Assembly: GCA_030603565.1 (NCBI GenBank)
Contig: JAUVXM010000001.1
Coordinates: 47,328-111,327 of the forward strand
Direction of reading: 5' to 3'
DNA: 64,000 nt
Source of the DNA: Candidatus Aminicenantota bacterium
GTDB taxonomy: Bacteria; Acidobacteriota; Aminicenantia; Aminicenantales; Aminicenantaceae
Position 1 is the stretch's first letter. Every line of letters starts with the position of its first letter. This document shows positions 6,400-48,287 of the stretch, piece by piece. The notes beneath the pieces were generated by a model. It was not told the DNA's origin, searched no databases, and saw only the letters and a list, made by a program, of their open reading frames with translations. The position numbers were made by a program, and so were the translations under genes.

Positions 6400-6652
6400 C
6401 CTGAACTATTCATAAAAAATGTCGATATGTATGATACCTCCTTTTAAGTCAATATGTTACATTGATTGCTGCCGATAGACAATTGGTCATTTTGTTTTCG
6501 ATGTAATCTATATTTATAATCGACATTTTTTCCCTTTCAGGCGGGCCGATTTTACCGCATCTACTTTGTTGCAGCGGATTCGCGGTGAAATACCACAGCT
6601 TCATCCCCTGCGCCTCGTATCTGCGGCAACCTTGGCTCGTGAATAAGTCAGG
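6400..6652 (+). repeat. R2: full-length MITE-like element, 253 bp
   Basis: CCTGAACTATTCATAAAAAATGTCGATA...TAATCGACATTTTTT...module A...GTGAATAAGTCAGG. Confidence 0.88.
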
Positions 6653-6677
6653 TTAATATGATAAAATAATTATAGTT

Positions 6678-7586
6678 ATGAAAAAAATCAGCAAAAAGCC
6701 TCCTTTCCGGTTTTCTCATTTTTCCATGGGGACGACTTTTGAAGTCATAATAGCCGGCTCTGATGAGATTTATGCCGGACAAGCCTCCCAGGCGGTATTT
6801 GCTGAGATTGACCGGATAGATAATCTCTTTAACCGCTTTAATCCCTCCAGTGAGGTCGGTCAGCTCAATCTTCTCAAAGCTGGAAAAAAATTAAAGATAG
6901 GGATCGAGCTTTTTGAGTGCCTAAAAACAGCCGCCCGGGTGCAGAAGGAAACCGGAGGAGCTTTTAATATTAACGTTGCTTCTCTCGTACAATATAAAAG
7001 GAAAGGCATAGAGTTTCCGGTGGAATTATCCTTACTGCCTGCAGGGTTTATGGCTAAAATTTTGGATAGATTGCCTGGTCAAAAAACGCATGGAGTAGAA
7101 TTCGACCTGGGAGGTATCGGAAAAGGATATGCTTTGGAAAAAGCCCAGGTGATTTGTTCTGATTGGGGTATAAAGCGGGTGCTGTTGCATGGAGGGACAA
7201 GTACGGCTCTGGCTGTAGGAGATGCCTCTTCTGGAAACGAGGGAAATACTGGCTGGCCGGTAGGAATTGGGGGGGACTGGGATTGCCCTAAGGCACCTGC
7301 GAGGTTTTTCCTCAAAAACCGGGCTTTAAGCGGTTCCGGGATTGAAGTTAAAGGAGAGCACATTATTGACCCTAAAACCTGGCAGCCTGCTAAGGGGCAT
7401 AAAGCTGTTTGGGTATCGCATACCTCTGCAGCTTGGGCTGATGCTTTATCCACGGCTTTTATGGTTATGACTACAGAGCAGGTTGAAGAATACTGCAGCC
7501 GGAATCCGGCTGTCTGGGCCATGGTTGTAAAAGATGCCGGGAAATGGAAAATATATAACCGTAAGGCAGTAAATGGTGAATGGTGA
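6678..7586 (+). CDS. apbE: FAD:protein FMN transferase
   Basis: 302 aa; 'MGTTFEVI', 'FDLGGIGKGYALEKA', 'WADALSTAFMVM'. Confidence 0.93.
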   Translation: MKKISKKPPFRFSHFSMGTTFEVIIAGSDEIYAGQASQAVFAEIDRIDNLFNRFNPSSEVGQLNLLKAGKKLKIGIELFECLKTAARVQKETGGAFNINVASLVQYKRKGIEFPVELSLLPAGFMAKILDRLPGQKTHGVEFDLGGIGKGYALEKAQVICSDWGIKRVLLHGGTSTALAVGDASSGNEGNTGWPVGIGGDWDCPKAPARFFLKNRALSGSGIEVKGEHIIDPKTWQPAKGHKAVWVSHTSAAWADALSTAFMVMTTEQVEEYCSRNPAVWAMVVKDAGKWKIYNRKAVNGEW

Positions 7587-7679
7587 ATGGTGAAAGCGGG
7601 AAGAGAAGAGGGGATTAGGAAAGATAAGGCTAAAAGTAGTGAATTGCGAAAAAAAAATAAAATGGAAAAGGAGCGTTGT

Positions 7680-8369
7680 ATGATTAAAAAAACATCAATA
7701 TTATTGGTCATTGTCTTTGGTGTGGCAATCTCTGCTTATGGAGTCGGAATAGATATGCGGGCAGAGTCACAAGAAAAAGTAGTGCTAAAACTCGAACTGC
7801 CCAAGCCTATGTTCATCGGCACACCTCGTAATATCCGTTCATCTAACCTGGAAAAAATAACCGGAAAAAAGAGAGGGGACTTTTATGTACTGGAAGGAAC
7901 AGAGTTTTTGTCTCTGGAAAAACCGGTTTCCGGAAGCGATATGGAACCGATAATAGGTGAAGTAGATTTTGTTACTGATGGAGAAAAGTCGGGCGAGGAT
8001 GGTTGTTATGTAGAATTCGGCCCGGGAGTCCAGTATGTACAGATAGACCTGGAACAGGTCTGTACTCTGCATGCTATCCTTATCTGGCATTATCACAGCC
8101 AGGCTCGAGTCTATCGGGATGTTATTGTCCAGGTTTCTGATGACTCAGACTTTATCACCGGAGTTCAAACTGTCTTTAATAATGACCATGATAATTCTGC
8201 CGGGCTGGGAATCGGCAGAGATAAAGAATATATTGAGACCAATGAGGGACGATTGATTGATCCACGTGGTGTTAAGGCCAGGTATATTCGTCTGTACTCA
8301 AATGGAAACACTTCAAATGATGTAAATCATTATGTTGAAGTGGAAATTTATGGTATGAAGGAAAAATGA
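7680..8369 (+). CDS. Secreted discoidin (F5/8 type C)-like domain protein
   Basis: Signal peptide from MIKKTSILLVIV; 'YVQIDLEQVCTLHAILIWHYHSQARVYRDVIVQVSDD...ARYIRLYSNG'. Start trimmed from the 7587 ORF. Confidence 0.65.
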   Translation: MIKKTSILLVIVFGVAISAYGVGIDMRAESQEKVVLKLELPKPMFIGTPRNIRSSNLEKITGKKRGDFYVLEGTEFLSLEKPVSGSDMEPIIGEVDFVTDGEKSGEDGCYVEFGPGVQYVQIDLEQVCTLHAILIWHYHSQARVYRDVIVQVSDDSDFITGVQTVFNNDHDNSAGLGIGRDKEYIETNEGRLIDPRGVKARYIRLYSNGNTSNDVNHYVEVEIYGMKEK

Positions 8370-9925
8370 ATAATAAGGCCTTTAAGGGCCTGTTTGTTTT
8401 AATCGTTTTTGGGGCCCTGGTTTTTCGTCTGGCCCAGTTAAACCTTCGGCCTCTGCATCATGATGAAGCCAACCAAGCGGTAAAATTCGGCGTCCTACTG
8501 GAAAAGGGCGAATACAGCTATGACCGCAATGACCACCATGGTCCTAGTCTATATTATCTTAGCCTTCCTTTTACTTGGATTTTTTCAGGCAAGGACTTTG
8601 CTTCTTTGCATGAAAAGACCTTGCGGCTTGTGCCTGCAATTTTCGGAGCCGGCTTGATCCTGTTTTTTCTTTTGCTTAAAGGGGGAATGAACCGTTGGGC
8701 AATCATATTATCCGGTTTATTTATGGCTGTGTCTCCGGTAATGGTCTTTTTCAGCCGGTTTTATATCCAGGAAATATTGTTGCTTTTTTTTATTGCAGGG
8801 ACAATCGGAGCGGGCTGGCGTTACTCCCAAAATCCGTCGACAGGCTGGGCCCTGGCAGCAGGACTAAGTGCGGGAATGATGTATACCACCAAGGAGACAT
8901 GCATAATAGTATTCGGGGCATTAGTCAGTGCCCTGGTCTTGACTAAACTTTTCCGAAGAAGAGGTGAATTTCAGAAAGATTCTTCTAATTCCCCGAAGGT
9001 AAAACATTTGTTTATCAGTATGGGAGCTGCCCTGCTGATTTCCGGGCTGTTTTATTCTTCATTTTTTAGAAACCCTGGCGGCCCTTTGGATTCTCTCCTG
9101 GCATTTGGGTCTTATTTCAGCCGGGCAGGGGAGGCCGGGATGCATGTCCATCCCTGGTATTACTATATTAAGATGTTGGCTTATTCTCGATACGGGCCCG
9201 GGCCGGTCTGGAGTGAAGCGCTTATTTTAATCCTGGCAGCTGGCGGATGTTTCTCTGCTTTTAAAGCCAGGAGAGAAAATGGTTCAGGTTATGTCTTTAT
9301 ACGGTTTGTTTTTTTCTATACGCTGCTCTCTACTATAATATTTTCCCTGATAGCATATAAAACCCCCTGGAATATTCTTCCTTTCTATATGGGAATGATC
9401 CTTCTGGCTGGTGAAGGGGTGGTTTTTTTAATCAGGAAAACACATAAAATCTGGACACGAGGAGTGGTTTTATTGCTGTTGGGCCTGGGGATATTCAATC
9501 TTGGAGCTCAGAGTTACCGGGCCAATTTTAAATACTTTGCAGACCCCCGTAACCCGTATGTATATGCTCATACTTCTACTGATTTTTTAAATCTTGTCCA
9601 ACGTATTGAGGATATAGCTCTTCTGCATCCGGACCATAAGCAGATGCTTATTAAAGTGATTACCGGCCCGTATGAAACCTGGCCTTTGCCCTGGTACTTG
9701 CGAAAATTCACCAGAGTAGGATACTGGCAGGAGGTTGGTGCGGCCGGTGAAATACCTGGTGTTCCTGTGATAATATCTTCAATTGATAAACTTGATAAAC
9801 TGCAGGTTCTTTTGGGGGATGATTATCAGTCTGAGTTTTACGGATTGCGTCCCGAAGTGCTGCTGGCTGTACATATTCGCCAGGACTTGTGGAATAAATT
9901 TTTACAGAAACAGGCAGAACGCTAA
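8366..9925 (+). CDS. TIGR03663-type multi-pass membrane glycosyltransferase (GT39-like)
   Basis: 519 aa; 'LNLRPLHHDEANQAVKFGVLLEKGEYSYDRNDHHGPSLYYLSLP', multi-TM. Confidence 0.85.
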   Translation: MNNKAFKGLFVLIVFGALVFRLAQLNLRPLHHDEANQAVKFGVLLEKGEYSYDRNDHHGPSLYYLSLPFTWIFSGKDFASLHEKTLRLVPAIFGAGLILFFLLLKGGMNRWAIILSGLFMAVSPVMVFFSRFYIQEILLLFFIAGTIGAGWRYSQNPSTGWALAAGLSAGMMYTTKETCIIVFGALVSALVLTKLFRRRGEFQKDSSNSPKVKHLFISMGAALLISGLFYSSFFRNPGGPLDSLLAFGSYFSRAGEAGMHVHPWYYYIKMLAYSRYGPGPVWSEALILILAAGGCFSAFKARRENGSGYVFIRFVFFYTLLSTIIFSLIAYKTPWNILPFYMGMILLAGEGVVFLIRKTHKIWTRGVVLLLLGLGIFNLGAQSYRANFKYFADPRNPYVYAHTSTDFLNLVQRIEDIALLHPDHKQMLIKVITGPYETWPLPWYLRKFTRVGYWQEVGAAGEIPGVPVIISSIDKLDKLQVLLGDDYQSEFYGLRPEVLLAVHIRQDLWNKFLQKQAER

Positions 9926-10647
9926 TGGATATTTCAATTGTAATCCCGGCCTTAAATGAGGCCCACAAGATTGGATATGATGTAGAAGCTGCTGCTTCAT
10001 TTTTCTGCGAGGCGGGTTTTAAGGGAGAGGTTATTGTAGTTGATGACGGCAGCACGGATAATACGGCTGAGACAGCGAGAAACACTCCTGTCCCTCAAAC
10101 TGTAGAGTGCAAGGTTATCTGCTTGGAGAGAAATTCAGGCAAGGGATTTGCGGTTAAAACAGGAGTTAAAGCTTCCCGGGGTGAGATAGTATTGTTTGCA
10201 GACAGCGGCACCTGTATTCCCTATAGAAATGCTTTGCCTTCTATCAGACGTATCCGTACCGGGAAACTGGATGTTGCTCTGGCTTCACGGCGGCTGAAAA
10301 AGACTGTAATCTGCAGGAACCGCCCTTTGAAGCGGCGGATATTATCATGGTTTTTTCTCAAGGCTGCAGTGTGGGTGGCAGGGCTTCCCAAGCAGGTCAC
10401 TGATTCTCAGTGCGGGTTTAAAATCTTTAGAGGAGAAATTGCTAAAAAGCTGTTTGCGGAATGTGAAACTATAGGTTTTCTGTTTGATATAGAGATTCTT
10501 ATGCGGGCCCTGCATAATGGTTATAGTATTGAGGAATTTCCGGTGGAATGGAGCTGCGACCTGGATACCAGGATGCGTCCGGGTTCGGATGCCCCTAGAA
10601 TGCTTAAAGGATTATTCAGGGTAAGAAGGATTATTAAAAAATTTTAA
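9925..10647 (+). CDS. Glycosyltransferase family 2 (dolichyl-phosphate glycosyltransferase-like)
   Basis: 240 aa; 'DISIVIPALNEAHKI...VIVVDDGSTDNTAE...LASRR...DSQCGFKIF'. Confidence 0.93.
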   Translation: MDISIVIPALNEAHKIGYDVEAAASFFCEAGFKGEVIVVDDGSTDNTAETARNTPVPQTVECKVICLERNSGKGFAVKTGVKASRGEIVLFADSGTCIPYRNALPSIRRIRTGKLDVALASRRLKKTVICRNRPLKRRILSWFFLKAAVWVAGLPKQVTDSQCGFKIFRGEIAKKLFAECETIGFLFDIEILMRALHNGYSIEEFPVEWSCDLDTRMRPGSDAPRMLKGLFRVRRIIKKF

Positions 10648-10704
10648 TCTTAATTTAATCTTAATTTAATATTTTTCTGCTATAATTCCTGAATAGAAAA
10701 ATAG

Positions 10705-10957
10705 CCTGGATTATTCACGAGTCGAGGTTGCTGTAGATGAGAGGAGTAGGGTATGAAGCTGTGGTTCTTCACCGCGAATGCCCTGCAACGAAGCAGATGC
10801 AGTAAGATTGGCTCGCCTGAAAGGTAAAAAAATGGCGATTAAAATTAAAAATAAAAACGAGAAAAAAGTTGCAATAATCATTCTCGAAAGAATCTCGTAT
10901 ATCATTGAAAAGAAAATATTAATAGCAACATCGCCATTTTTTTATGAATAGTTCAGG
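10705..10957 (-). repeat. R3: full-length MITE-like element, 253 bp (inverted orientation)
   Basis: CCTGGATTATTCACGAGTCGAGG...TTGGCTCGCC...AAAAAAATGGCGATT...ATCGCCATTTTTTTATGAATAGTTCAGG. Confidence 0.88.
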
Positions 10958-18317: not shown

Positions 18318-18640
18318 CATGAATAATTAAGGTTAGTTAAGAGCTGGCATAGACACAGGTAAGTCCCTTCGAAAGACAGGGATTTTCCCCAGCGGGGAAA
18401 TCCCTTCCTGTCCTCACAACGCTCTTCTCGAGATTCTCTCGAGGAACCATGCCCGCGTTGTTCCGGATGGCTTTCTCCGGGATTTACCAGTATCCAGGCC
18501 GGCTCGTAACCTTAATCATTCATAAGAAACGTCGGTATCATGTAATATTTAGATTATTAGCGGATTTAAAATGAAACAATTTACAATTTGAATTTTACTT
18601 TATATTATATATATCGACATTTTTAATGAATAATTCAGGT
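18318..18640 (+). repeat. R4: composite repeat (module C' plus AT-rich hairpin module)
   Basis: CATGAATAATTAAGG...GGGATTTTCCCCAGCGGGGAAATCCC...GAGATTCTCTCGAGGAACCATGCCCGCG...ATTCATAAGAAACGTCGGTAT...ATATCGACATTTTTAATGAATAATTCAGG; the C' part is inverted at 48326-48503. Confidence 0.8.
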
Positions 18641-34515: not shown

Positions 34516-36003
34516 TTGGATATTTATGATAAGCTAAGCAACCCGGTTGCTCTTATCATATTTCTTTTAACCCTTTTCCTTCCTGTTTTCATAGGTTTTT
34601 TAACTCTAGGGAAAACAAAAACCCAGTCTGATTTTTTTATCGGCGGCCGGGCCATGAATAAATTCGTGGTTGCTTTATCCGCTGTCTCTTCCGGAAGATC
34701 TTCCTGGCTGGTCTTGGGTGTAAGCGGTATGGCATATACCCTGGGAACGGGAGCAGTCTGGGCAATTGTAGGTTACATAACAGCCGAGATGTTTCAATTT
34801 GTCTATATTGGCAGAAAGCTGCGCATAGAGACAGAGAATTTAAAATCACTTACTCTGCTTGATTATTTTGAATCGAAGTTTAATGATAAAAAACATCTCA
34901 TTAGAATAACCGGCTCGCTCATCATTACTATCTTTATTACTGCTTATGTAGCCGCACAATTTAATGCAGGGGCAAAATCTCTTAGCACCGCTCTGGATAT
35001 CCCTATTTTGATATCCTTAGCCATATCAGGATTTTTGGTTTTGCTCTATATGGTTTTAGGGGGATATATCGCTGTTGCTTACAATGATGTAGTTAGGGCG
35101 GTTATCCTGATTCTTGGGTTGGTTATTTTTCCCGCGTATGGTCTGATCAGAATCGGTGGATTTAAACTGATGCTCCAAGCTTTGGCTCAGTTGAATCCGG
35201 CTCTTATCGACCCCTTTTCTTTAAGTGTCGGGGCTATAATTGGTTTTCTGGGGATTGGGTTGGGCTCACCCGGGCAGCCTCATATCGTTGTAAGATATAT
35301 GTCTATTGATGACCCGGAGAAATTGCGGTTTTCCGCTGTGATAGGAACAATATGGAATGTAGTGCTGGGGTGGGGAGCAGTATTTATCGGCCTGTTGGGT
35401 AGGATCATGGTTCCAGCAGTGGGCAGTTTGCCTGATAAAGATCCGGAGATGATCTACCTTGTGCTCTCTTCTGATTATTTTGGTCCAGTGCTTTACGGTT
35501 TGATCATTGGGGGGATCTTTGCGGCCATTTTGTCAACCGCCGATTCCCAGCTTTTGGTAGTATCCTCTACATTTGTACGGGATGTGTATGAGAAGATAAT
35601 AAAAAAAGGTTCAGGAATTGTGGAGTCTCAGAGACTGAAGCTGAGCCGTCTTGTTGTGATACTCTCCGGGCTTTTAGCTTTGGTTGTTGCTTATCTGGCG
35701 CAAGAAATGGTATTCTGGCTGGTTCTTTTTGCCTGGGGAGGGCTGGGAGCTTCCTTTGGGACTGCCCTGATCTTTACTCTCTACTGGAAGAAGACTAATA
35801 AGTACGGAATCGTTTTCGGAATGGTCACAGGGACACTGGTGACCATTTTTTGGAAATTGTTTTTAACAGATCCTACTGGGATCTATGAGCTTATCCCTGC
35901 TTTTATCTGTTCTTCTCTGGCTATAATCGCTTGCGGTCTTGTTTCAACAGATGCGAAAAAGCGAAAAATAGAAAATGGAGAGTGCAAGAATCAGGTCAGT
36001 TGA
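34516..36003 (+). CDS. Sodium:solute symporter (PutP-like)
   Basis: 495 aa; 'SDFFIGGRAMNKFVVALSAVSSGRSSWLVLGVSGMAY', 'GGIFAAILSTADSQLLVVSSTFVRDVYEKI'; TTG start. Confidence 0.93.
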   Translation: MDIYDKLSNPVALIIFLLTLFLPVFIGFLTLGKTKTQSDFFIGGRAMNKFVVALSAVSSGRSSWLVLGVSGMAYTLGTGAVWAIVGYITAEMFQFVYIGRKLRIETENLKSLTLLDYFESKFNDKKHLIRITGSLIITIFITAYVAAQFNAGAKSLSTALDIPILISLAISGFLVLLYMVLGGYIAVAYNDVVRAVILILGLVIFPAYGLIRIGGFKLMLQALAQLNPALIDPFSLSVGAIIGFLGIGLGSPGQPHIVVRYMSIDDPEKLRFSAVIGTIWNVVLGWGAVFIGLLGRIMVPAVGSLPDKDPEMIYLVLSSDYFGPVLYGLIIGGIFAAILSTADSQLLVVSSTFVRDVYEKIIKKGSGIVESQRLKLSRLVVILSGLLALVVAYLAQEMVFWLVLFAWGGLGASFGTALIFTLYWKKTNKYGIVFGMVTGTLVTIFWKLFLTDPTGIYELIPAFICSSLAIIACGLVSTDAKKRKIENGECKNQVS

Positions 36004-36332
36004 TACGAAAACACGCGAATTTTCCCCAGCGTGGAAAATACGCTCGGATACAGTCTTCGCTCTCTTCTCCTTATGGAGAAGAACCATGCCCGCTCATCCT
36101 TGCTAACGGCTTTCTTAATCATCCTGAACTATTCATAAAAATTACCGATGTCATATTTAAAAAAACCAAACTTATTTTATCATCGGCACTTTTTACCCTC
36201 CGGGCGAGCCGATCTCACCGCATCTGCTTTGTTGCAGCGGATTCGCGGTGAAATACCACAGCTTCATCCCCTGCGCCTCGCATCTACGGCAACCTCGACT
36301 CGTGAATAATTCAGGCAAATTAACCTGATTCT
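35987..36332 (+). repeat. R5: composite repeat, module C with nested inner element
   Basis: Outer ends AGAATCAGGTCAGTTG / CAAATTAACCTGATTCT inverted; inner element 36123..36315 has CCTGAACTATTCAT...GTGAATAATTCAGG ends. Confidence 0.85.
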
Positions 36333-36383
36333 TTTTACCGCTCTTTTAGCAAAAAATTGCTTTCCACCAAAAGACAAGCCCCT

Positions 36384-36592
36384 GATGAAATTCTGATGTG
36401 GCTGAAGCGACATTGAAGATTTAGCCTTCTGATGAGTATTTTCGAGGGAATCCGACGTAGTCGGACGTTGAGCATGTCTGACCCACGGACGGGGGGAGTT
36501 GCGCAGACGCCAAGAAAACCGAAGAAGAATGGCGTTAAAAATCTGAAGCGAGCAAAAGCCACACCCGAATTTCATCTTTTATGAATAGTTCA
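36384..36592 (+). repeat. R6: module D repeat
   Basis: TGAAATTCTGATGTGGCTGAAGCGACATTGAAGATTTAGCC...CACACCCGAATTTCAT...ATGAATAGTTCA; inverted copy at 48492-48702. Confidence 0.85.
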
Positions 36593-37339
36593 AAGTTTGC
36601 GTATCCAGATGTTCCGGTAACGTACCGGATTGCCGTGGTCCTGTAGAGAGATAGGTAGTTTGTCCGGGTGGAATTTGTAAGGAGGGCGTTTTTTCCAGGC
36701 GGTAGGACCTGTCAGTTCTGCATTATCCTGGATCAGGACTCCATTGTGTAGTATTGACATAAGAGCAGGTTGAGTCAGGCTGCCCTTATTATCAAAGAGG
36801 GGCCTGTGAAAAATAATATCAAAACTCTGCCATTTTCCGGGGGGGCGGCAGGCATTGACCAGGGGGGGGTGCTGCCCGTAAATTGCTCCGGCCATACCAT
36901 CAGCATATGTCTGGTTGTTATAGCAGTCAAGCACCTGGACTTCATACAGATCCATTAGAAAGACGCCGCTGTTACCGCGGGCCTGTCCCTTCCCTAAAGC
37001 CGGAAGAGGAGTAGACCATTCTATATGAAGCTGGCAGTCTCCGAATTTCCGGATTGTGCGGATAGAGCCTGTCTTTTTAACCACTTCCATATAATCGTTT
37101 TTTACCTTCCAGCGGGCCGGTTTGCCTTTGCTGTCTTCCCACTGAGACAGGTTTTTTCCATTAAAAAGGACAATAGCATCTGCAGGCGGAAGTGCCGGCC
37201 CGCTGCCTGTCCCAGGCTTTATCACCGGTGGTAGCGAGCGGTCTTTATCGTGGATTTTCCATTTCCCCTGGAAGGCCCCGGCTGCAGTTACAATAAAAAC
37301 CATGACCGGAACGAGTATCATTGGTGGGATATTTTTCAT
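36590..37339 (-). CDS. DUF1080 (3-keto-disaccharide hydrolase-like) secreted protein
   Basis: 249 aa; 'IVLFNGKNLSQWEDSKGKPARWKVKNDYMEVVKKTGSIRT...FGDCQLHIEW...NSGVFLMDLYEVQVLD'. Confidence 0.93.
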   Translation of the reverse strand: MKNIPPMILVPVMVFIVTAAGAFQGKWKIHDKDRSLPPVIKPGTGSGPALPPADAIVLFNGKNLSQWEDSKGKPARWKVKNDYMEVVKKTGSIRTIRKFGDCQLHIEWSTPLPALGKGQARGNSGVFLMDLYEVQVLDCYNNQTYADGMAGAIYGQHPPLVNACRPPGKWQSFDIIFHRPLFDNKGSLTQPALMSILHNGVLIQDNAELTGPTAWKKRPPYKFHPDKLPISLQDHGNPVRYRNIWIRKL

Positions 37340-37350
37340 ATTTAATTCGC

Positions 37351-38742
37351 TTACAGGGACCAGCCGGAACGGTATTCCTTGTGGATGTATTGGTTAGCCT
37401 CAGGCAGATTGGTGAATTCCATTTTATCTCCGTTCCATTCCAGCTTGGTTTTATGTTTCTGCATCCTGACTGCAATATTTCCGAGCAGCATGACTTCTGT
37501 CAAGGTCCCGGAATAAGAGAAGTCTGAGGTTGATTTTTTTCCGTTTTTTATAGCTTCTATCCATTCTGCGTGGATACCGGGTGAGCGCGGGATTGTTTTT
37601 TCCGGGCGTTGGTATTCCTGCATTTTTGTTTCAGGAATAATACGGGGATGCTGCCCGTATGTGCTGAACATAAGTTTACCTTTATCGCCAAAAAAAAGAC
37701 CCCCACCGCCTGCATCCCCCATCATACGGCCGTCTTCCAGTTCAGCAGGCCTGGGGGGCATAATCCCGCCGTCATACCAGGTAAGTTTGACTGGGGGCAT
37801 CTTGCCTCTAGCGGGGAATTCATATGTCAGGACTTCTGCCAGCGGGTAAGAGTCTTTTGTGAATTTGCTCGAACTTGCTTGAACAGAAGTGGGATGTCCA
37901 AGTTTTAGGGCCCAGAAAGGGTGGTCTAAGATGTGAGCGCCCATGTCACCTATGGCTCCGGTCCCGAAATCCCACCATCCCCGCCAGCTGAAAGGAGCAT
38001 AAGCCGGATGATAAGGGCGGAAAGGTGCCGGTCCCAGCCAGAGGTTCCAATCTAAACTTGAAGGAACAGAGGGGATTTCTATAGGAGCATTGATTCCCTG
38101 GGGCCAGATGGGGCGGTTTGTCCAAGTATGGACTTCGCGTACATCACCGATAGCTCCGTCCCATATCCATTCATTTATAAGGCGACCACCTTCGCCTGCA
38201 TGCCCTTGATTTCCCATTTGCGACACTATGTCTGCCTCTTTCGCTGCTTTTGCCAGCATACGGGCTTCTTTTATAGTGTGGGTAAGCGGCTTCTGGACGT
38301 AAACATGCTTTCCCATTTTAATGGCCGTCATGGCAACAACTGTATGGTTATGATCGGGAATTGAGACAGTAATAGCATCTATGCCTTTTTCTTTTTCCAG
38401 CATGGTGCGGAAATTGCGGTATTTATTTGCCTTTTCATACATCTTCTTGGCCTGAGGTTCGATGCGGTCGGATTTTAATAATTTTGCCATCATGGTATCG
38501 TCAACATCACATAAAGCAACGATATTTTCAGAACTGACATTACGGACATCGGAAAAACCCTGCCCGCCGACACCTACACCCCCGACGTTTAATGTGTCGC
38601 TCGGAGGGGAATAGCCTTTTCCTCCTAGTACATGCCTGGGGATTATCATAAATCCGGCTGCAGCAGTTGTAGACCGGCTGATAAATTCCCGCCTGGTTAT
38701 GCCGTTTGATTGTTTTTTTGAGTCTTTTTGCTTTGTTTTCAT
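37351..38742 (-). CDS. Gfo/Idh/MocA family oxidoreductase with Tat-like leader
   Basis: 463 aa; 'GITRREFISRSTTAAAGFMI', 'DAITVSIPDHNHTVVAMTAIKMGKHVYVQKPLTHTIKEARML'. Confidence 0.96.
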   Translation of the reverse strand: MKTKQKDSKKQSNGITRREFISRSTTAAAGFMIIPRHVLGGKGYSPPSDTLNVGGVGVGGQGFSDVRNVSSENIVALCDVDDTMMAKLLKSDRIEPQAKKMYEKANKYRNFRTMLEKEKGIDAITVSIPDHNHTVVAMTAIKMGKHVYVQKPLTHTIKEARMLAKAAKEADIVSQMGNQGHAGEGGRLINEWIWDGAIGDVREVHTWTNRPIWPQGINAPIEIPSVPSSLDWNLWLGPAPFRPYHPAYAPFSWRGWWDFGTGAIGDMGAHILDHPFWALKLGHPTSVQASSSKFTKDSYPLAEVLTYEFPARGKMPPVKLTWYDGGIMPPRPAELEDGRMMGDAGGGGLFFGDKGKLMFSTYGQHPRIIPETKMQEYQRPEKTIPRSPGIHAEWIEAIKNGKKSTSDFSYSGTLTEVMLLGNIAVRMQKHKTKLEWNGDKMEFTNLPEANQYIHKEYRSGWSL

Positions 38743-38880
38743 ATGCGAATCGTTCCCTATTTAAATTTTGGTATAATTATTTTTCCCAGTTCTTAATATA
38801 TACATTTATTATAAGTGCAGTCAACAGGAGATTAAGGCTGGAGTTCCCCCAATTTTTTCTAAGCTTTAGAGCCTTAAGCA

Positions 38881-39228
38881 AGAATCAGGTCAGTTGATAC
38901 GAAAACACGCGGATTTTCCCCAGCGTGGAAAATCCGCTCGGATACAGTCTTCGCTCTCTTCTCCTTAAGGGAGAAGAACCATGCCCGCTCATCCTTGCTA
39001 ACGGCTTTCTTAATCATCCTGAATCATTCATAAAAATTGCCGATGTCGTATTCAAAAAAACAATAACTTATTTTATCATCGGCACTTTTTACCCTCCAGG
39101 CGAGCCGATCTTGCCGCATCTACTTCGTTACAGGGCATTCGCGGTGAAGGACCACAGCTTCATCCCCTGCGCCTCGTATCTGCGGCAACCTCAACTCGTG
39201 AATAATCCAGGCAAGTTGACCTGATTCT
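38881..39228 (+). repeat. R7: composite repeat, module C with nested inner element
   Basis: Same architecture as R5 (348 bp vs 346 bp); stem TGCCGATG...CATCGGCA in the inner element 39018..39211. Confidence 0.87.
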
Positions 39229-39378
39229 TATTACCGCTCTTTTATCAAAAAATAAGAGAGAACTCCAAGGAAAGAGAAGAGGATAAGATTAATATTAACT
39301 GTGATTCAGGGCATCCTCTAAAGGTCTTGCTTTTACTGCCTTTTCTGGCGTTTCTGGTTTCTCTGTCCTTCCTGTTTT

Positions 39379-39936
39379 TTAGTCTGGGGTTTTTAGGGAG
39401 GCTTTTTTGATGATGACCGGGATTTTGGGTTTGTGGACTGCAATTTTTTTGTCCGGTCCTATCCATTTTTCATCGACTTCTACATTCCCGATTTTTTCCA
39501 ATACATCAAGGCCTTCGATAAGCTGTCCGAAGACAGTGTATTTCCCGTCCAGATGGGGTCTGGGGGCAAGGCAGATGTAAAATTCGCTGCTCCCGCTGTA
39601 GATATCTTCGGTCCTTCCCAGACCGACTGTGCCAACAAGGTGGGGATTGTCATTAAATTCAGGTGGGACTGTCTCACCTCCGCCTCCTGCTTGGATAACA
39701 TGGCCTTTGACCACGCGGTAGAAGTCTTTTCCGTTGTAATAGCCGGCTTGGACCAGTTCTTGAAAATTTTTGCAGGTTTCGGGAGCATCTTCTTCAAAAA
39801 AACGAAAAACCATTGTTCCAAGGTTTGTTTCCAGAACACATAGCTTCTCTTTGGACGATTGTGTTTCAGAAACAGACTCCTGTTGACCGCAAGAAAATAA
39901 TGATAAAATCAGGATTACGGCAATTAGATATCTCAT
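39379..39936 (-). CDS. Peptidylprolyl isomerase (cyclophilin type) lipoprotein
   Basis: 185 aa; 'LETNLGTMVFRFFEEDAPETCKNFQELVQAGYYNGKDFYRVVKGHVIQAGG'; lipobox 'LILSLFSC'. Confidence 0.93.
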   Translation of the reverse strand: MRYLIAVILILSLFSCGQQESVSETQSSKEKLCVLETNLGTMVFRFFEEDAPETCKNFQELVQAGYYNGKDFYRVVKGHVIQAGGGGETVPPEFNDNPHLVGTVGLGRTEDIYSGSSEFYICLAPRPHLDGKYTVFGQLIEGLDVLEKIGNVEVDEKWIGPDKKIAVHKPKIPVIIKKASLKTPD

Positions 39937-39963
39937 GTTTTTTTCCTTTTTCTAAACTTGATT

Positions 39964-40986
39964 TTATTCTGTACGTTTTCCCTGGATGAACTGTTCAGCA
40001 ATTTTTACATCATCTTCACTGCCGATGATAAGCGGTATTCGCTGGTGAAGCTCTAAGGGTTTGATATCTAAGATCCTTTTTTGTCCATCCGAGGCTCTTC
40101 CACCGGCTTGTTCTACGATAAATGCCATAGGATTAGCTTCATACAGGAGGCGTAGTTTCCCCTTTTTTCGGTTGGGGGATTTATTATCAGCAGGGTAGAG
40201 AAAAATTCCTCCATAAAGCAGATTCCGATGGAAATCAGCTACTAAAGACCCGATGTAGCGTGAGCTTAAAGGCCGTCCGTCTTCAGGGACAGCTTTTTTG
40301 GCCCAGCGGACGTAATTTTTCATTCCCTCATCCCAGTAATCGAAATAACTCTCATTTACACTGTAGATCTTGCCCTTCTTAGGGGTTTTGATGTTGTCGT
40401 GGGACAGAACAAAAGCCCCGAAAGTCGGATCCAGGGTGAAACCATAAACTCCGCTTCCGGTAGTGTAAACCATCATAGTGGATGATCCATATATAACATA
40501 TCCGGCACAGATCTGTTTATATCCCGGCTGTAGCAGGTCTTCCTCTGTGCCCGGATGTCCGGCTGGTGTTATGCGGGTATAAATGCTGAAAATAGTCCCG
40601 ATACTAACATTTGCTTCGATGTTGGATGAGCCGTCAAGGGGATCGAAACAGCAGACATATTTTCCGAGCGGGTATTTTTGGGGGACAGGTATAATATCTG
40701 GATTTTCTTCTGAGGCTAAAACACATAAGTTGCCGCCGTGTACAAGGGCTTTTATCATTATTTCATCGGAAAAAAGGTCTAACTTCTGCTGGCTTTCCCC
40801 ATGGATGTTAGTCGTTCCTGCTTTCCCCACGATATTGATTAGCCCGGCCTTGTTGACGTTATAAGAAATTATTTTTGCTGCTAAAGATATGTCGGTTAAA
40901 AGGGATGTAAAGGCTCCTGTTGCTTCAGGATGATTTCTTTCCTGATCGACAATATGTCGGTCAAGGGTTATGGCAAAACCTGACAT
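39964..40986 (-). CDS. fbp: Fructose-1,6-bisphosphatase class I
   Basis: 340 aa; 'CCFDPLDGSSNIEANVSIGTIFSIY', 'LLYEANPMAFIVEQAGGRASDGQKRILDI'. Confidence 0.97.
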   Translation of the reverse strand: MSGFAITLDRHIVDQERNHPEATGAFTSLLTDISLAAKIISYNVNKAGLINIVGKAGTTNIHGESQQKLDLFSDEIMIKALVHGGNLCVLASEENPDIIPVPQKYPLGKYVCCFDPLDGSSNIEANVSIGTIFSIYTRITPAGHPGTEEDLLQPGYKQICAGYVIYGSSTMMVYTTGSGVYGFTLDPTFGAFVLSHDNIKTPKKGKIYSVNESYFDYWDEGMKNYVRWAKKAVPEDGRPLSSRYIGSLVADFHRNLLYGGIFLYPADNKSPNRKKGKLRLLYEANPMAFIVEQAGGRASDGQKRILDIKPLELHQRIPLIIGSEDDVKIAEQFIQGKRTE

Positions 40987-41018
40987 GATACACCTCCATT
41001 CGTGAATAATCTAGGTTT

Positions 41019-41152
41019 CCTGGACTATTCATAAAAAATGTCAATACATATAATATTAAGCAAAATGCAAATTGTAAATTTTATCATAAATACCACAGCT
41101 TCATCCCCTGCGCCTCGTATCTACGGCAACCTCGACTCGTGAATAATCCAGG
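41019..41152 (+). repeat. R8: internally deleted repeat (134 bp), both TIRs retained
   Basis: CCTGGACTATTCATAAAAAATGTCAATAC... joins directly to ...ACCACAGCTTCATCCCCTGCGCCTC...GTGAATAATCCAGG. Confidence 0.85.
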
Positions 41153-41308
41153 ACAATTATTTTTCATTAATGATGCTGACATCAGTCTATTATTGCACTA
41201 TATACTTTAAATAATGTAAAGTATAAATTCAATCTTGCAGTTTCATGCTTTTAATTATGATATAAATATTTTAACATTAATAAAGATAAAATAAAAAAGG
41301 AAAAAAAT

Positions 41309-42421
41309 ATGAAGATAGAAAAATTTGAAATGGAGCGGATGCAGTCTTGCTGGGAAAATGTGGTCGAATATGATATGAGCGAAAGCGGTATTCGGGCCGT
41401 TACCCTTAAGGAACTTTGTGAAATGGGCTTTAACCTGAATGCAGTAATGGATATGCCGCTGGGCTACAGCCAGTCAAACGGAACGATCGAACTGCGTGAG
41501 CTTCTGTCTCAGCATTATCCCGGAGCTTCTATAGATAATATCGAAGTTACGAATGGAACTTCAGAGGCAAATTATATGCTTTCCTTGGTAACCCTAAAAG
41601 CTGGAGATGAAATGGCGCTTGAGGTTCCCAATTATATGCAGTTATGGGGAGTGCCCAGGAGCTTGGGTGCTAAGATCAACCGATTTTCCTTGGATTTTTC
41701 CCGAAATTGGGAACCGAGCTGGGATGAATTTGAAGCTGCTGTAAATGAGAAGACAAGCCTGGTTTATGTTTCAAATCCAAACAATCCGGGTGGAGCGGTC
41801 TTGTCTGAATCTGCTATGAAAAGGATAGTATCGCGCTGTGAGGAAGTGGGGGCCTACCTGCTAGCGGATGAAGTTTATATTGGGGCTGAGAGGGACTGTG
41901 AGTGGACAAAAAGTTTTTGGGGTATGAGTGACAAAGTAATTGTGACAAGCGGTCTTTCTAAAGCCTATGGTATACCCGGGATTCGGATCGGCTGGATAGT
42001 AGGACCTGAAGATGTTGTAGCTGAATGCTGGTCCCAGCATGATTATATTACCATAGGGCCTAATATTCTTTCTGACATTATAACCCGGACTGCAGTAAAG
42101 GCTGAAAATAGGGAAAAGCTTTATGCAAGGACACGGAAAATCCTGGAAAAGAATTACCCGATAATGCAGGAATGGCTGAATAGTTATGGGGATTTATTAA
42201 CGTTTAATCCTCATGTGGCCGGGGCTTTCTGGTTTGTAAAATATAATACTGATTTGTCCAGTGAGGAACTCTGTCAGCGGATAATGAAGAATCAGAGTAC
42301 TTTGGTGGTGCCAGGTATCCATCTGGGGATGGAAGGTTTTCTTCGTATCTGGATGGGAGCAAAGCCTGAATTTTTAAGGGAAGGACTGCGTCGTATTGGA
42401 GAAGAAATCAAAGCGATGTAA
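41309..42421 (+). CDS. PLP-dependent aminotransferase class I/II
   Basis: 370 aa; 'VTNGTSEANYMLSLV', 'LVYVSNPNNPGGAVLSE', 'VTSGLSKAYGIPGIRIGWIVG'. Confidence 0.93.
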   Translation: MKIEKFEMERMQSCWENVVEYDMSESGIRAVTLKELCEMGFNLNAVMDMPLGYSQSNGTIELRELLSQHYPGASIDNIEVTNGTSEANYMLSLVTLKAGDEMALEVPNYMQLWGVPRSLGAKINRFSLDFSRNWEPSWDEFEAAVNEKTSLVYVSNPNNPGGAVLSESAMKRIVSRCEEVGAYLLADEVYIGAERDCEWTKSFWGMSDKVIVTSGLSKAYGIPGIRIGWIVGPEDVVAECWSQHDYITIGPNILSDIITRTAVKAENREKLYARTRKILEKNYPIMQEWLNSYGDLLTFNPHVAGAFWFVKYNTDLSSEELCQRIMKNQSTLVVPGIHLGMEGFLRIWMGAKPEFLREGLRRIGEEIKAM

Positions 42422-42428
42422 GTAAACT

Positions 42429-42474
42429 GGGGATCAAGTCTTGTTTTCTGCGCAAAAAACAAGACCTGATCCCC
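42429..42474 (+). repeat. Long near-perfect palindrome (19-bp arms)
   Basis: GGGGATCAAGTCTTGTTTT-CTGCGCAA-AAAACAAGACCTGATCCCC; one mismatch in 19 bp, located between aminotransferase stop and S9 peptidase start. Confidence 0.9.
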
Positions 42475-42492
42475 GAATTTAGGAGGATATTA

Positions 42493-45363
42493 ATGTGTAA
42501 AACCATCAGGGTTTTTGGGCTATTTTTTCTGATTATTTTTTTAGTTCAATCAAGTTACCTGTTAGGTGTAGATCGAGCTGGGAATACAAAACAGCCGTTA
42601 TCCCATGCTGATTATGATTCATGGAAGTCGATTTATCGTCCTGCAATATCTGACGACGGCAAGTGGGCTTTATATCTTGAAACTCCTCAGGATGGCGAGG
42701 CAGAGCTTGTAGTAATAAATTTGAAAAACAGAGATGAGTATAGACATACTATCGGATATTCAGGAGAAGGAACGGATGCTGAGAAAGCTGCCCGGGCTGA
42801 GTTTAACAGCGACGCGACTAAGGTTTTATTTTTAATCTCCCCCTCGCAAGCAGAGGTCAAAGAAGCCAAAAAAGAAAAGATAACGAAAGATAAGGACAAA
42901 CCCAAGAAGAAATTGGGAATTATGGACTCATCTTCCGGCAAAGTGATTGTTATTGACCGTGTAAAAAGTTTTCTACTCCCCGAAGATGCCCCAAACTGGG
43001 TTGCCTATTTAAAGGAAGCCCTGCCTGAAGCTGAGAAAAAAGAGGAGGAAAAAGAAGAGAAAAAGGCTGAGGAAAAAGAAGAAGAGAAAGAAGATAAGAA
43101 AAAAGATAAAAAACGAAAATATGGGACTTCCCTGATTTTGCGCTCTTTTAAAGACGGAACTGAAACTGAGTTCACTGATGTGCTTGCGTATTATTTTTAT
43201 AAAAATGAAAAAAAACTCTTTTATATTGTTTCAAGTAAAGATAAACCTGAAACAGATGGAGTGTATATGGTCGAGCCCGGTCAGGGCAGAAGCGTTCCTT
43301 TATTAAGCGGGAAAGGAATTTATAGTAAGTTTGCTCTGAATGAAAATGAGACCTGTATTGCCTTTCTAACTGACAGGGATGATCAGGAGTCAAAGAAGCC
43401 GTATTTTAATCTTTATGGATGGGAAGAAGGCGAAGCCAAAGCTTCTTTATGGGTGTCCCATACGCTCCAATCAAATTTCCCGGAAGGAATGGCTGTCAGC
43501 GATAAATCCGATATCTCTTTTTGCGAGGATGGCAGGGTTGTGATGATTGGCATAAAGGATATCCCTGCTCCCAAGAATGAGGAAGATGAGGGTGAAGAAG
43601 AGGAGAAGGCTAAGTTTGACCTGTGGCACTGGAATGACCCTTATCCTCAACCACAGCAGAAATTAATGGCAGACGAGGTGCGTGATAACACTTGGGAATC
43701 TGTTTACCACCTCAGAAGTAAATCCTTTGTAAAGCTCGCTGACAAGGAAATACCGGACGTCCAGCTTTCAGATAATGGGAAAGTAGCTTTTGCCCGGACC
43801 ACTTGGCCTTATGCAAAGCGGGTCGCATATTACGGGGCATACTATGATGTTTATGTGATCAATCCTCAAACAGGCAAGAAGACCCTGGTCAAAAAAGAAC
43901 TTTACGGCCGGGCCAGTCTTTCACCTGGCGGAAAATATGTATATTGGTTTCTGAAAGGGGGTTGGTTTGTTTATGATATTGCCTCCGGAAAAACAAAAAA
44001 CATCACAGAATCAATCGATATTGATTTTGAACAATATGACTGGGACCGCCCCAATCCCAAAGGCAGTTATGGGATTGCCGGCTGGACGGACAGTGACGCA
44101 GCAATCCTGCTCAATGACCGTTATGATATCTGGGAGATTAGTCCGGATGGTTCCAGCGCCCGCATGATAACAGAAGGTTACGGCCGCTCTCATGACCTAT
44201 CTATGCGCTATGTGAGATTAGACCCGGATGAGAAGACAATAAACCCGAAGGAATCCATATTGCTTAAAGCTGTAGACCAGAATACTATGGCAGAAGGATT
44301 TTTCCGGGACAGAGTAGACGGTAATAAAAAACCAGTAAAGCTTATGATGCTGGATAGGACGATCCGGCCGTTTATCAAAGCTAAAAAGGAAGACAGATTT
44401 CTTTATGCCCGCTCGACTTTTGAGGAATATCCAGATCTCTGGACCTGTGATGCTGATTTTCGCAAACCGGAAAAGATCACAGACCTTGGCCGGCAGATGG
44501 AACCTTTTATCTGGGGAAAATCTGAGATACGTGACTTTCTCAGCGCTGACGGGAAACCGCTTAAGGGTATCCTTATCAAACCGGAAAATTTTAATCCAAA
44601 TAAGAAATATCCCCTGATGGTGTATATTTATGAAACCCTTCATCAGGGAAGACACAACTATCGCCACCCTTCACCAGGGTCCTCTATCAATCCGCCTTAT
44701 TATGTTAGTAACGGCTATATACTCTGGATGCCTGATATTGAATATGATACCGGATATCCCGGCCGGGATGCCTTAAAATGTGTATTGCCGGGTATTCATA
44801 TGCTCATCCGGGAGGGATATGTCGACCCTGAGGCGATCGGTATTCAAGGTCATTCCTGGGGGGGCTACCAGATTGCTTATATGATTACCCAGACAAATAT
44901 TTTTGCCGCCTCTGTAGCCGGCGCTCCGGTATCGAATATGACCAGCGCCTATGGCGGTATCCGTTGGGGAAGCGGTATGGTACGCCAGTTTCAGTATGAA
45001 CGCACCCAAAGCCGGCTGGGTGATACGCTCTGGAAGGTACCTATGCGTTATATTGAAAATTCACCGGTTTTCTGGGCGGATAAGATCCAGACTCCCGTGA
45101 TGTATATGCATAATGATGAGGACGGGGCTGTCCCTTGGTACCAGGGAATCGAATTCATTATGGCTCTCCGCCGCCTGGAAAGAGAAGCGTATATGTTTAA
45201 TTATAATGGCGAAGCTCATGGTTTGCGTAAACGTGTCAACCAGGAGGACTGGACTATACGCATGGCGGAATTTTTTGATCATCATTTAAAAGGCGCCCCT
45301 ATGCCGGATTGGATGAAATTAGGAATTAAAGCCTGGGAAAAAGAAAAAAATGAAGTCAAATAA
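42493..45363 (+). CDS. S9 family prolyl oligopeptidase-type peptidase
   Basis: 956 aa; 'GIQGHSWGGYQIAYMITQT' (GxSxGG), 'MYMHNDEDGAVPWYQGIEF', 'NGEAHGLRKR'; K/E-rich low-complexity insert near residue 180. Confidence 0.95.
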   Translation: MCKTIRVFGLFFLIIFLVQSSYLLGVDRAGNTKQPLSHADYDSWKSIYRPAISDDGKWALYLETPQDGEAELVVINLKNRDEYRHTIGYSGEGTDAEKAARAEFNSDATKVLFLISPSQAEVKEAKKEKITKDKDKPKKKLGIMDSSSGKVIVIDRVKSFLLPEDAPNWVAYLKEALPEAEKKEEEKEEKKAEEKEEEKEDKKKDKKRKYGTSLILRSFKDGTETEFTDVLAYYFYKNEKKLFYIVSSKDKPETDGVYMVEPGQGRSVPLLSGKGIYSKFALNENETCIAFLTDRDDQESKKPYFNLYGWEEGEAKASLWVSHTLQSNFPEGMAVSDKSDISFCEDGRVVMIGIKDIPAPKNEEDEGEEEEKAKFDLWHWNDPYPQPQQKLMADEVRDNTWESVYHLRSKSFVKLADKEIPDVQLSDNGKVAFARTTWPYAKRVAYYGAYYDVYVINPQTGKKTLVKKELYGRASLSPGGKYVYWFLKGGWFVYDIASGKTKNITESIDIDFEQYDWDRPNPKGSYGIAGWTDSDAAILLNDRYDIWEISPDGSSARMITEGYGRSHDLSMRYVRLDPDEKTINPKESILLKAVDQNTMAEGFFRDRVDGNKKPVKLMMLDRTIRPFIKAKKEDRFLYARSTFEEYPDLWTCDADFRKPEKITDLGRQMEPFIWGKSEIRDFLSADGKPLKGILIKPENFNPNKKYPLMVYIYETLHQGRHNYRHPSPGSSINPPYYVSNGYILWMPDIEYDTGYPGRDALKCVLPGIHMLIREGYVDPEAIGIQGHSWGGYQIAYMITQTNIFAASVAGAPVSNMTSAYGGIRWGSGMVRQFQYERTQSRLGDTLWKVPMRYIENSPVFWADKIQTPVMYMHNDEDGAVPWYQGIEFIMALRRLEREAYMFNYNGEAHGLRKRVNQEDWTIRMAEFFDHHLKGAPMPDWMKLGIKAWEKEKNEVK

Positions 45364-45691
45364 AAAACTTGGTATTATCTTTATGCTTATTCTCTGGATA
45401 GTAACGGCCTGGCTTCTCTATCCTCTTGTAGTGCTTGATTCTGTTGATATGGATAGTGCTAAGGAGTACTTTTACCGTTCAGCTATAGGGATTGCTATTA
45501 TGATTATTCTGTTTGGCAAGACTGCCTTTGATCTTTTTTTCCCGCAAGTAGTGAGCAAAAAAGTGCCGCTCATTAATACGATCTTTCTCACTCTATATTC
45601 CCTGCTTATAGCCGGGGGGGTAATTTTTATGGTATCCCGCATGATAATGCTCTATATCAACAACCAGGAGAGTACCGGAATTTTGTTTTAA
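45350..45691 (+). CDS. Hypothetical small multi-TM protein
   Basis: 113 aa, three predicted TM segments, overlaps the S9 gene by 14 nt. Confidence 0.6.
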   Translation: MKSNKKLGIIFMLILWIVTAWLLYPLVVLDSVDMDSAKEYFYRSAIGIAIMIILFGKTAFDLFFPQVVSKKVPLINTIFLTLYSLLIAGGVIFMVSRMIMLYINNQESTGILF

Positions 45692-45846
45692 CTAAAATAT
45701 AAAGCTCAGAGTTCAGATTCAGATTTTTCTTTCTACTCATGTACGGATTATTGTGATTAACCAGAGCGTAAAAGATGCAACACATCCGGCAAAAGCAAGG
45801 TTTTCTATATTGGAAGGAATATTTTCTTCTTTTCTTTGTATATAGT

Positions 45847-46098
45847 ATGGGTTATTCACGAGCCGAGATTGCTGCAGATGCAAGGCACAGGGTATGAAGC
45901 TGTGGTCCTTCACCGCGAATACCCTGTAACAAAGCAGGTGCAGTGAGATCGGCTCGCCTGTAAGGTAAAAAAATGGCGATTAAAATTAAAAATAAAAGCA
46001 AGAAAAAAGTTTTAATAATCATTCTTGAAAAAATTTTGCATATCATTAAAAAGAAAAAAATAATAAAAACATCGCCATTTTTTTATGAATAAGTCAGA
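45847..46098 (-). repeat. R9: full-length MITE-like element (~252 bp, inverted orientation)
   Basis: GGTTATTCACGAGCCGAGATT...GATCGGCTCGCC...AAAAAAATGGCGATT...ATCGCCATTTTTTTATGAATAAGTCAG. Confidence 0.87.
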
Positions 46099-46116
46099 AT
46101 AGATATGGAGGCTAGA

Positions 46117-48027
46117 ATGTCAAAAAAAACAATAATCGGGATTTTAATTTCAATGTTCTTTTTTGGAGCTGCTTTATTATCAGGAATGTCCTGGGCTGCA
46201 GGTCATGTTTCTTTAAAGGGATTAGTAACGGATTCTCAGGGAAATGTCCTGCCCGGGGTTAAGATCATAGCCACAAATACAGCCACTAATGTTCAATATG
46301 ACACTGTAAGCGACAGCAAGGGACATTTCTTTTTTCAAGAGCTTCCCGCCGGTTTTTATGATATCAAAGTGGGAATGGCAGGATTTAAGACAGTGCTCAG
46401 GAAAAATATCCGGATTGGGGAGGCAAAGACAGTTACATTGGAGTTTAAGCTTAAAATGTTAGGCTCTCTGGAGGATATTACTTTGGTAGCGCTTGAAGAA
46501 GCTAAAACCGGAGGAGTGCTTGGAGGAGTTGTAGGTGGAGTTCGAAAAAAGGAGGCTTATTGGCAGCCTGTAGCCCCGTATCCGTCTGCATATCCTAAGC
46601 ATGATACTGAGGAATACGACCGTATATATGAGAATAGATACTTGGATGCTCTGAATAATCCGCTTTCAACTTTCTCTATTGATGTTGACACAGCCTCGTA
46701 TTCGAATATTCGGCGTTTTATAAAAAACAATCAGTTTCCTCTAAAGGATGCTGTCCGTATTGAAGAGATGATAAATTATTTTAGTTATGATTATCTCCTT
46801 CCCAAAAAGAAGTACCCATTTTCCATCAATACTGAGATTTCTTCCTGCCCTTGGAATCAAGAGCATCACCTGGTCCATATAGGTTTGCAGGGGAAGAAAC
46901 TTGAGACCAAACAGCTTCCTCCCAGTAACCTGGTTTTTCTCCTTGATGTTTCAGGCTCCATGCAATCACCCAACAAGCTTCCTCTGCTGCGGACAGCATT
47001 TAAACTACTGGTTAGAGAGCTGGGAGAAAACGACAGGGTTTCTATTGCAGTCTATGCCGGGGCAGCCGGCCTGGTATTGCCTTCGACTTCTGCCCGTCAG
47101 AAGGATAAGATCATCGAAGCTATAGACAAACTTCGGGCCGGAGGTTCCACGGCCGGAGGAGCCGGCATTAAACTTGCCTACAAAGTGGCAGAGGATAACT
47201 TCATTGAAAATGGAAACAACCGCATAATCTTAGCGACCGATGGTGATTTTAATATCGGGGTTTCCAGTACTTCCGCCCTGGTACGTTTGGTAGAGGAAAA
47301 GCGCAAAAAAGGAATATTTCTGACCACTCTCGGTTTTGGCATGGGAAATTACAAGGACGGCAGGATGGAGCAGTTAGCTGATAAAGGAAATGGAAATTAT
47401 TATTATATCGATAATCTACTTGAAGCTAAAAAGGTATTTATCGATGATATGCGGGGGACTCTCTTTACAATTGCTAAAGATGTGAAGATCCAGATCGAGT
47501 TTAATCCTGCTAAAGTTAAGGCGTATAGACTTATAGGGTATGAAAACCGGATGTTAGAGAAAGAGGATTTTGCAGACGATACCAAGGATGCCGGCGAATT
47601 GGGCGCAGGCCATACTGTAACTGCACTTTATGAAATAATTCCTTATGGCTCTAAAGAGGATATTCCGGGAATCGATAAACTGAAATATCAGGAAACCACA
47701 ATTAGTCCGCAAGCCTTTAAAAGTAAAGAGCTTATGACTGTGAAGCTGCGGTACAAGGAACCGGACGGCGAGAAGAGCAAGTTGATAGAACATCCTCTGG
47801 TAGATAAACACGTTAAGCTGGATGCTGCTTCTGAAAATTATAAATTCTCCGCAGCAGTTGCTGCGTTCGGTATGCTGCTTCGGGATTCGGATTATAAAGG
47901 CGACTCGACTTTTGAGAGTGTATTAAAGCTGGCCCGGGAAGGCAAAGGAAAAGATTTTCACGGCTATCGGGCAGAGTTTATCAAGCTTGTGGAAATGTGC
48001 AGCTTGCTGAAGGATATTAATAAATAA
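46117..48027 (+). CDS. YfbK-like von Willebrand factor A domain protein with N-terminal carboxypeptidase-regulatory-like domain
   Basis: 'GHVSLKGLVTDSQGNVLPGVKIIATNTATN', 'NPLSTFSIDVDTASYSNIRRFI', 'LVFLLDVSGSMQSPNKLPLLRTAFKLL'; RBS GGAGG upstream of the 46117 ATG. Confidence 0.93.
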   Translation: MSKKTIIGILISMFFFGAALLSGMSWAAGHVSLKGLVTDSQGNVLPGVKIIATNTATNVQYDTVSDSKGHFFFQELPAGFYDIKVGMAGFKTVLRKNIRIGEAKTVTLEFKLKMLGSLEDITLVALEEAKTGGVLGGVVGGVRKKEAYWQPVAPYPSAYPKHDTEEYDRIYENRYLDALNNPLSTFSIDVDTASYSNIRRFIKNNQFPLKDAVRIEEMINYFSYDYLLPKKKYPFSINTEISSCPWNQEHHLVHIGLQGKKLETKQLPPSNLVFLLDVSGSMQSPNKLPLLRTAFKLLVRELGENDRVSIAVYAGAAGLVLPSTSARQKDKIIEAIDKLRAGGSTAGGAGIKLAYKVAEDNFIENGNNRIILATDGDFNIGVSSTSALVRLVEEKRKKGIFLTTLGFGMGNYKDGRMEQLADKGNGNYYYIDNLLEAKKVFIDDMRGTLFTIAKDVKIQIEFNPAKVKAYRLIGYENRMLEKEDFADDTKDAGELGAGHTVTALYEIIPYGSKEDIPGIDKLKYQETTISPQAFKSKELMTVKLRYKEPDGEKSKLIEHPLVDKHVKLDAASENYKFSAAVAAFGMLLRDSDYKGDSTFESVLKLAREGKGKDFHGYRAEFIKLVEMCSLLKDINK

Positions 48028-48035
48028 TCCACTAA

Positions 48036-48287
48036 CCTGAATATTCATAAAAAAATGGCGATGTTTTTATTATTAAATTCTCTTCAGTGATATGCAAGAT
48101 TTTTTCGAAAATGATTATTTCAACGATTTTTGTGTTTTTATTTTTAATTTTAATCGCCATTTTTTTACCTTTCAGGCGAGTCGATCTCCCCGCATCTGCT
48201 TTGTTACAGGGTACTCGCGGTGAAGTACCACAGCTTCGCACCCTGTGCCTTGCATCTACGGCAACCTCGACTCGTGAATAATCCAGG
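48036..48287 (+). repeat. R10: full-length MITE-like element, 252 bp
   Basis: CCTGAATATTCATAAAAAAATGGCGATG...AATCGCCATTTTTTTACC...CGAGTCGA...TCGACTCGTGAATAATCCAGG. Confidence 0.88.

Follow-up and report, generated by a model that had tools for sequence, protein, structure and literature searches.

The 64,000-nt stretch of Candidatus Aminicenantota DNA analysed here (the window) carries several copies of a repeat with an AT-rich hairpin, and the two arms of this hairpin appear to differ in matched fashion from copy to copy. Do these matched differences reflect selection on pairing, and if so pairing of RNA or of DNA, or are they a by-product of duplication? Repeat finding and reading of the intergenic regions revealed that the repeats are dispersed elements of 130-260 bp, and that the hairpin forms the inner portion of a MITE's left half. 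The repeats are non-autonomous IS1380-type MITE copies of one family of Candidatus Aminicenantes.

Most of the analysed copies are composites, which run from a left terminal inverted repeat (TIR) through an A-rich stem-loop (P2) and a 113-bp GC-rich palindromic module (P3) to a right TIR; the TIRs are the CCTGAACTATTCAT / ATGAATARTTCAGG ends. An intact copy begins with CCTGAACTATTCAT-AAAAAA and continues with TGNCGAT-spacer-ATCGNCA-TTTTTT. A simple MITE ends directly after TTTTTT with ATGAATAGTTCAGG (~140 bp, no module), and a composite adds the 113-bp module, which ends in CTCGTGAATAATCCAGG, for a total of ~194 or ~250 bp. Copies belong to subfamilies A, B and C, each with its own spacer. The window holds the following copies and fragments.

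4908-5020, plus strand: module-only (P3) copy, no recognisable P2 or left TIR.
6400-6652, plus strand: composite, subfamily A; left TIR 6400-6413, arms 6420-6426 TGTCGAT and 6519-6525 ATCGACA, P3 6540-6652 including the right TIR.
10705-10957, minus strand: composite, subfamily B; left TIR 10944-10957, arms 10930-10936 TGGCGAT and 10833-10839, module 10705-10817.
18510-18639, strand not assigned: simple MITE with palindromic ends and without a module; arms degenerate, GTCGGTA and ATATCGAC.
36123-36315, plus strand: composite, subfamily C; arms 36143-36150 TACCGATG (one mismatch) and 36181-36188 CATCGGCA, module 36203-36315.
39018-39211, plus strand: composite, subfamily C; perfect arms 39038-39045 TGCCGATG and 39077-39084 CATCGGCA, module 39099-39211.
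41019-41152, plus strand: composite with an internal deletion; the left TIR and arm are fused to the module's right half, no right arm.
45846-46098, minus strand: composite, subfamily B; arms 46071-46077 TGGCGAT and 45974-45980, module up to 45958.
48036-48287, plus strand: composite, subfamily B; arms 48056-48062 TGGCGAT and 48153-48159, module 48175-48287.
48773-48812, plus strand: right-end fragment of the P3 module, within a nest of other repeat modules.

This map amends several details of the sequence-only reading from which we started. The arms lie ~30 nt (copies at 36123 and 39018) or 90-93 nt apart, not 50-120 nt. The perfect TGCCGATG pair is that of the copy at 39018; at 36123 TACCGATG faces CATCGGCA with one mismatch. 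The GTCG/CGAC pair exists, but in another type of element, the simple MITE at 18510-18639. The copies at 10705, 45846 and 48036, all three with GGCGAT, are ~86% identical over 250 bp, and thus represent one subfamily in one state and not three independent changes.

More dispersed repeat modules occur in the window, at 18338-18504 and 48324-48490 (167 nt), 36382-36592 and 48494-48704 (211 nt), and 35984-36076 and 38878-38970 (93 nt). These are 93-97% alike and adjoin or nest with MITE elements, and the similar CCTG..ATTCAT ends of some of them suggest a larger modular MITE system. A strong 20-bp hairpin lies at 42429-42474, just past the end of an aminotransferase gene (41309-42421). Subfamily B copies contain a 39-codon minus-strand open reading frame (e.g., 10830-10957 and 45972-46098) with a Shine-Dalgarno-like GGAGAGTAAAAAAATG in front, which is complete or almost complete in roughly half of them; a coding role was rejected, as the frame showed no purifying selection (synonymous share 17% vs 22% expected).

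Across the 3.14-Mb host genome (149 contigs), we found more than 1,100 TIR-like sites (up to two mismatches); a shuffled control gave ~150. TIR pairs that face inward showed spacing peaks at ~140, ~190 and ~250 bp. This genome yielded 142 composites and 24 simple copies that could be used. The target duplication is 4 bp with the consensus YTAR: identical 4-bp duplications numbered 30 vs 9 expected in the 250-bp class and 8 vs 2 in the 140-bp class, and no other length was clearly enriched. The end pattern was present in 24 of the 61 genomes searched, all from the same family as the host, and was absent from the genomes of other families of the order among these 61. Named records with the pattern were Candidatus Aminicenantes MAGs and two MAG contigs labelled Deltaproteobacteria/Syntrophaceae (L010 and L063); the 27-bp end is exact in these two, which reflects either mis-binning or horizontal transfer. 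At 49 of the 157 full module copies in the host genome, one flank had no called gene and a contig edge lay there, so the repeats appear to interrupt the assembly of this MAG.

IS1380 elements produce target duplications of 4-5 bp. In a relative (G034, locus L158), we identified an intact IS1380-family element with the ends CCTGAATAATTCATAAAAAAA and CCTGATTTATTCATAAA, whose transposase (a 454-codon frame matching NF033539 at E=2e-119) lies between matching TIRs; the MITE-rich genome G022 carries IS1380 fragments with similar ends. The outer TIR CCTGAATTATTCATAAA and a 4-bp target duplication are common to the MITE and the IS1380 family, whereas the MITE has no transposase gene and the IS ends have no P2 stem (TGNCGAT). 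The inner stem thus goes beyond the IS ends, since the common stretch breaks off ahead of TGNCGAT. No autonomous IS1380 with the MITE TIR was found in the host genome, where TIR pairs 0.47-2.1 kb apart enclose only ordinary genes. Searches with PF13701, PF01609 and PF13358 revealed only the IS1380 elements of L158, G022 and host contig C5, the last of which (C5:345-2062, L001) is a further IS1380-type element whose 18-bp ends differ (CCCAAATAATCGG; CCCAAATAATCGGATAAG). In the proposed scheme, the MITE copies would be spread by an IS1380 transposase supplied in trans.

To measure covariation of the P2 arms, we cut the arms by outside anchors alone (the left TIR, and the module start or right TIR), so that pairing played no part in their alignment. 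The null was R-scape-like: substitutions were placed by parsimony on a FastTree tree, and those of each branch were randomly reassigned to columns. The statistic was stem-level and APC-corrected, with 200 simulations. Seven kinds of perfectly matched 7-bp core occurred in 177 of 238 copies from the host genome and relatives (TGTCGAT 99, TGGCGAT 34, TGCCGAT 23, TGCCAAT 9, TGCCGCT 9, TTGCGAT 2 and TGCCGAC 1). The stem statistic was 814 for all copies (null maximum 298) and 460 for host-genome composites (null maximum 145 in 200 simulations), which bears out the original observation that both arms change together. New loci from other genera alone gave 436 (null maximum 229; off-register versions stayed below 90), and a topology built from module columns only gave 1036 (null maximum 240). 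Within subfamilies, the statistic was 119 for C against a null maximum of 32; the observed value was reached by 2/200 simulations for A and by 18/200 for B, which is not significant. In an all-by-all test, single pairs were not significant (best P2 pairs in subfamily C, E ~0.4-2.6; P3 pairs, E>10). These weak values arise because subfamily branches link many columns, and we therefore claim covariation for the declared stem as a whole and not for each pair. These results confirm that P2 pairing covaries far beyond chance in the host genome and independently in other genera.

What decides the matter is evidence from across the genome, above all from within subfamily C. The contrast seen in the window lies mostly between subfamilies with different spacers, whose differences could be old, and by itself does not prove compensation. 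Three subfamily C cores (CCGATG/CATCGG, CCAATG/CATTGG and CCGCTG/CAGCGG), however, have a common spacer and module. At one pair of this stem 26 copies are G-C and 10 are A-T, with 2 exceptions, and at the next pair 24 are A-T and 11 are C-G, with 3 exceptions. Similarly, AAGAAATG/CATTTCTT varies on a common background in subfamily A. The host genome has no simple (terminal-arm) copies of subfamily C, so the double changes most likely arose in composites, in which the right arm is internal.

Matching of terminal ends by the transposase was rejected as the cause of P2 covariation. The related IS1380 shares only the outer TIR and its ends lack TGNCGAT; furthermore, the outer TIRs of composites did not covary, and the right arm of subfamily C is internal.

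The P3 module is a quasi-palindrome that also covaries as a stem (384, null maximum 131), and whole copies are predicted to fold, on one strand, into a three-way junction of the TIR helix, P3 and P2. Fold z scores for the plus and minus strands were -4.6 and -7.7 (copy at 39018), -5.8 and -5.9 (6400), and -5.3 and -8.2 (48036). Against Rfam covariance models, the window yielded no hit at the gathering threshold and 36100-41200 yielded none at E<=1, and a scan of 36000-49000 for intrinsic terminators found none at P2 stems.

Which strand, and which nucleic acid, would carry this fold? The minus (module-first) strand of the module folded better in 134/134 host-genome modules (-47.6 vs -32.2 kcal/mol, a difference of ~15 kcal/mol) and in 88/99 modules from other genera; only 1.5% of simulations of symmetric decay reached the observed strand difference. 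RNA of the plus strand was rejected, as minus is the better-folding strand. Internal-branch mismatches in P3, given in plus-strand terms, were A.C (G.U on the minus strand) in 63 cases and G.T in 21, against an A.C share of 0.46 expected from unpaired sites; this asymmetry is modest by a per-pair sign test (16:5, p=0.03). Of 61 host-genome copies that lie between co-directional genes, 46 had the minus strand as the transcribed one and 15 had the other orientation (p=9e-5, from crude ORF calls); in a same-genus relative, the minus strand was the transcribed one for 10 of 14 copies once shared insertions were removed. This 3:1 bias is not general: it was absent in other genera (13 vs 13 of 26) and thus did not replicate there. 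P2 mismatches (G.T 18, A.C 38) showed no preference for plus-strand wobble, and a wobble asymmetry on internal branches of P2 (~14:2) was set aside because its events came largely from mis-extracted copies. Three weaker asymmetries, in module folding, P3 G·U-type mismatches and transcription orientation in the host genome, thus point to minus-strand RNA, and the choice between RNA and a cruciform is tilted that way by indirect evidence.

We give roughly even chances to the explanation that the repeat is an IS1380-type MITE in which a folded element is preserved among the copies that spread, most likely in minus-strand transcripts. In spreading copies, substitutions that break P2 or P3 would be selected against unless compensated, and the folded element would be preserved most likely within transcripts of the module-first strand; one-sided changes would mostly represent later decay of inactive copies. 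Transitions made up a larger share of double than of one-sided changes (47:20 vs 74:72, p 0.003-0.011), as expected from two-step compensation. Their enrichment on internal branches varied with the tree used (p=0.04 vs 0.75). A stronger version, which we advance tentatively, is that the repeat may be a mobile structured RNA, driven by IS1380, whose minus-strand transcript is a conserved three-way junction under selection. If so, many transcripts would acquire a defined RNA fold through the spread of a selfish repeat.

The main competitor is template switching (quasipalindrome correction), which would write a change in one arm into its partner and thereby produce covariation without any selection on the fold. 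This process can create multibase compensatory changes and maintain hairpins (PMC8794818), and would account for the several branches on which 2-5 pairs changed at once and for the lack of G.T or A.C intermediates at pair 10 among the 38 subfamily C copies. We nevertheless consider it somewhat unlikely as the sole cause. A T/C mismatch within the subfamily C stem is kept in 36/38 copies, though it is the type of defect that such correction removes, and inverted loops were seen in only 2/142 composites. Furthermore, the excess of transitions among double changes is more readily explained by two steps than by a single copying event, and the strand asymmetries are not predicted. The original proposal, that selection on pairing and not homogenised duplication explains the pattern, is partly supported: the covariation is statistically real and more than homogenised duplication; selection on the fold is favoured over template switching and is not proven.

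Selection could instead act on DNA, if fold-back of single strands or cruciform extrusion during transposition or replication were needed for efficient spread. All modules are palindromic in design, P2 lacks a plus-strand wobble preference, and in REPINs the replicative unit is a doublet that forms a hairpin and in which compensatory changes are reported to be common (PMC3116915). A DNA fold predicts strand symmetry, but folding is much better on the minus strand, where the wobble-type P3 mismatches also lie; this makes selection on DNA an unlikely reading. Independent subfamilies, born with matched arms by separate inverted duplications of one end so that nothing was ever compensated, would suit the different spacers of A, B and C and are compatible with the window alone, but they are very improbable given the three subfamily C cores on one background, the variation within subfamily A and the tree-aware tests in other genera; alignment of the genomic copies did not resolve into such subfamilies without supported covariation.

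The element can be compared with several known systems; a literature search on Aminicenantes repeats found nothing relevant among the papers covered. Prokaryotic MITEs derived from insertion sequences have been reviewed (PMC10969869). Like these, the Aminicenantes element is short, mostly intergenic and present in high copy number, has AT-rich ends, TIRs, short target duplications and no selected ORF, and folds strongly when treated as a transcript. It differs from them in being a composite of two palindromic modules and in an inverted repeat that extends beyond the transposase-type TIR to include a covarying stem. REPINs, which are doublets of REP sequences (PMC3116915), are likewise hairpin units scattered between genes, and compensatory changes are common in them. 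REPINs go with RAYT tyrosine transposases, whereas the Aminicenantes element has an IS1380-type TIR and a 4-bp target duplication, and a target duplication of fixed length argues against membership of the REPIN/RAYT group. BOX elements of Streptococcus pneumoniae (PMC3049150) are also modular interspersed repeats with predicted RNA folding. Compared by design, they consist of boxA, an array of boxB and boxC, and the Aminicenantes element of one P2 and one P3 module; the text of the BOX paper uses neither "compensatory" nor "covariation". Modular folding repeats and hairpin repeats with compensatory changes are thus already known, and what the Aminicenantes case adds is unusually good comparative evidence. 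Its hundreds of copies and numerous matched stem types within a single family make it a natural experiment on the long-standing question of fold selection versus hairpin-templated mutation, and it indicates that a MITE can have conserved structure beyond the ends common to its presumed parent IS. Together, these data show that the two halves of a stem change together over hundreds of copies in several genera, and it is apparently the fold that is conserved, most likely in RNA from a single strand.
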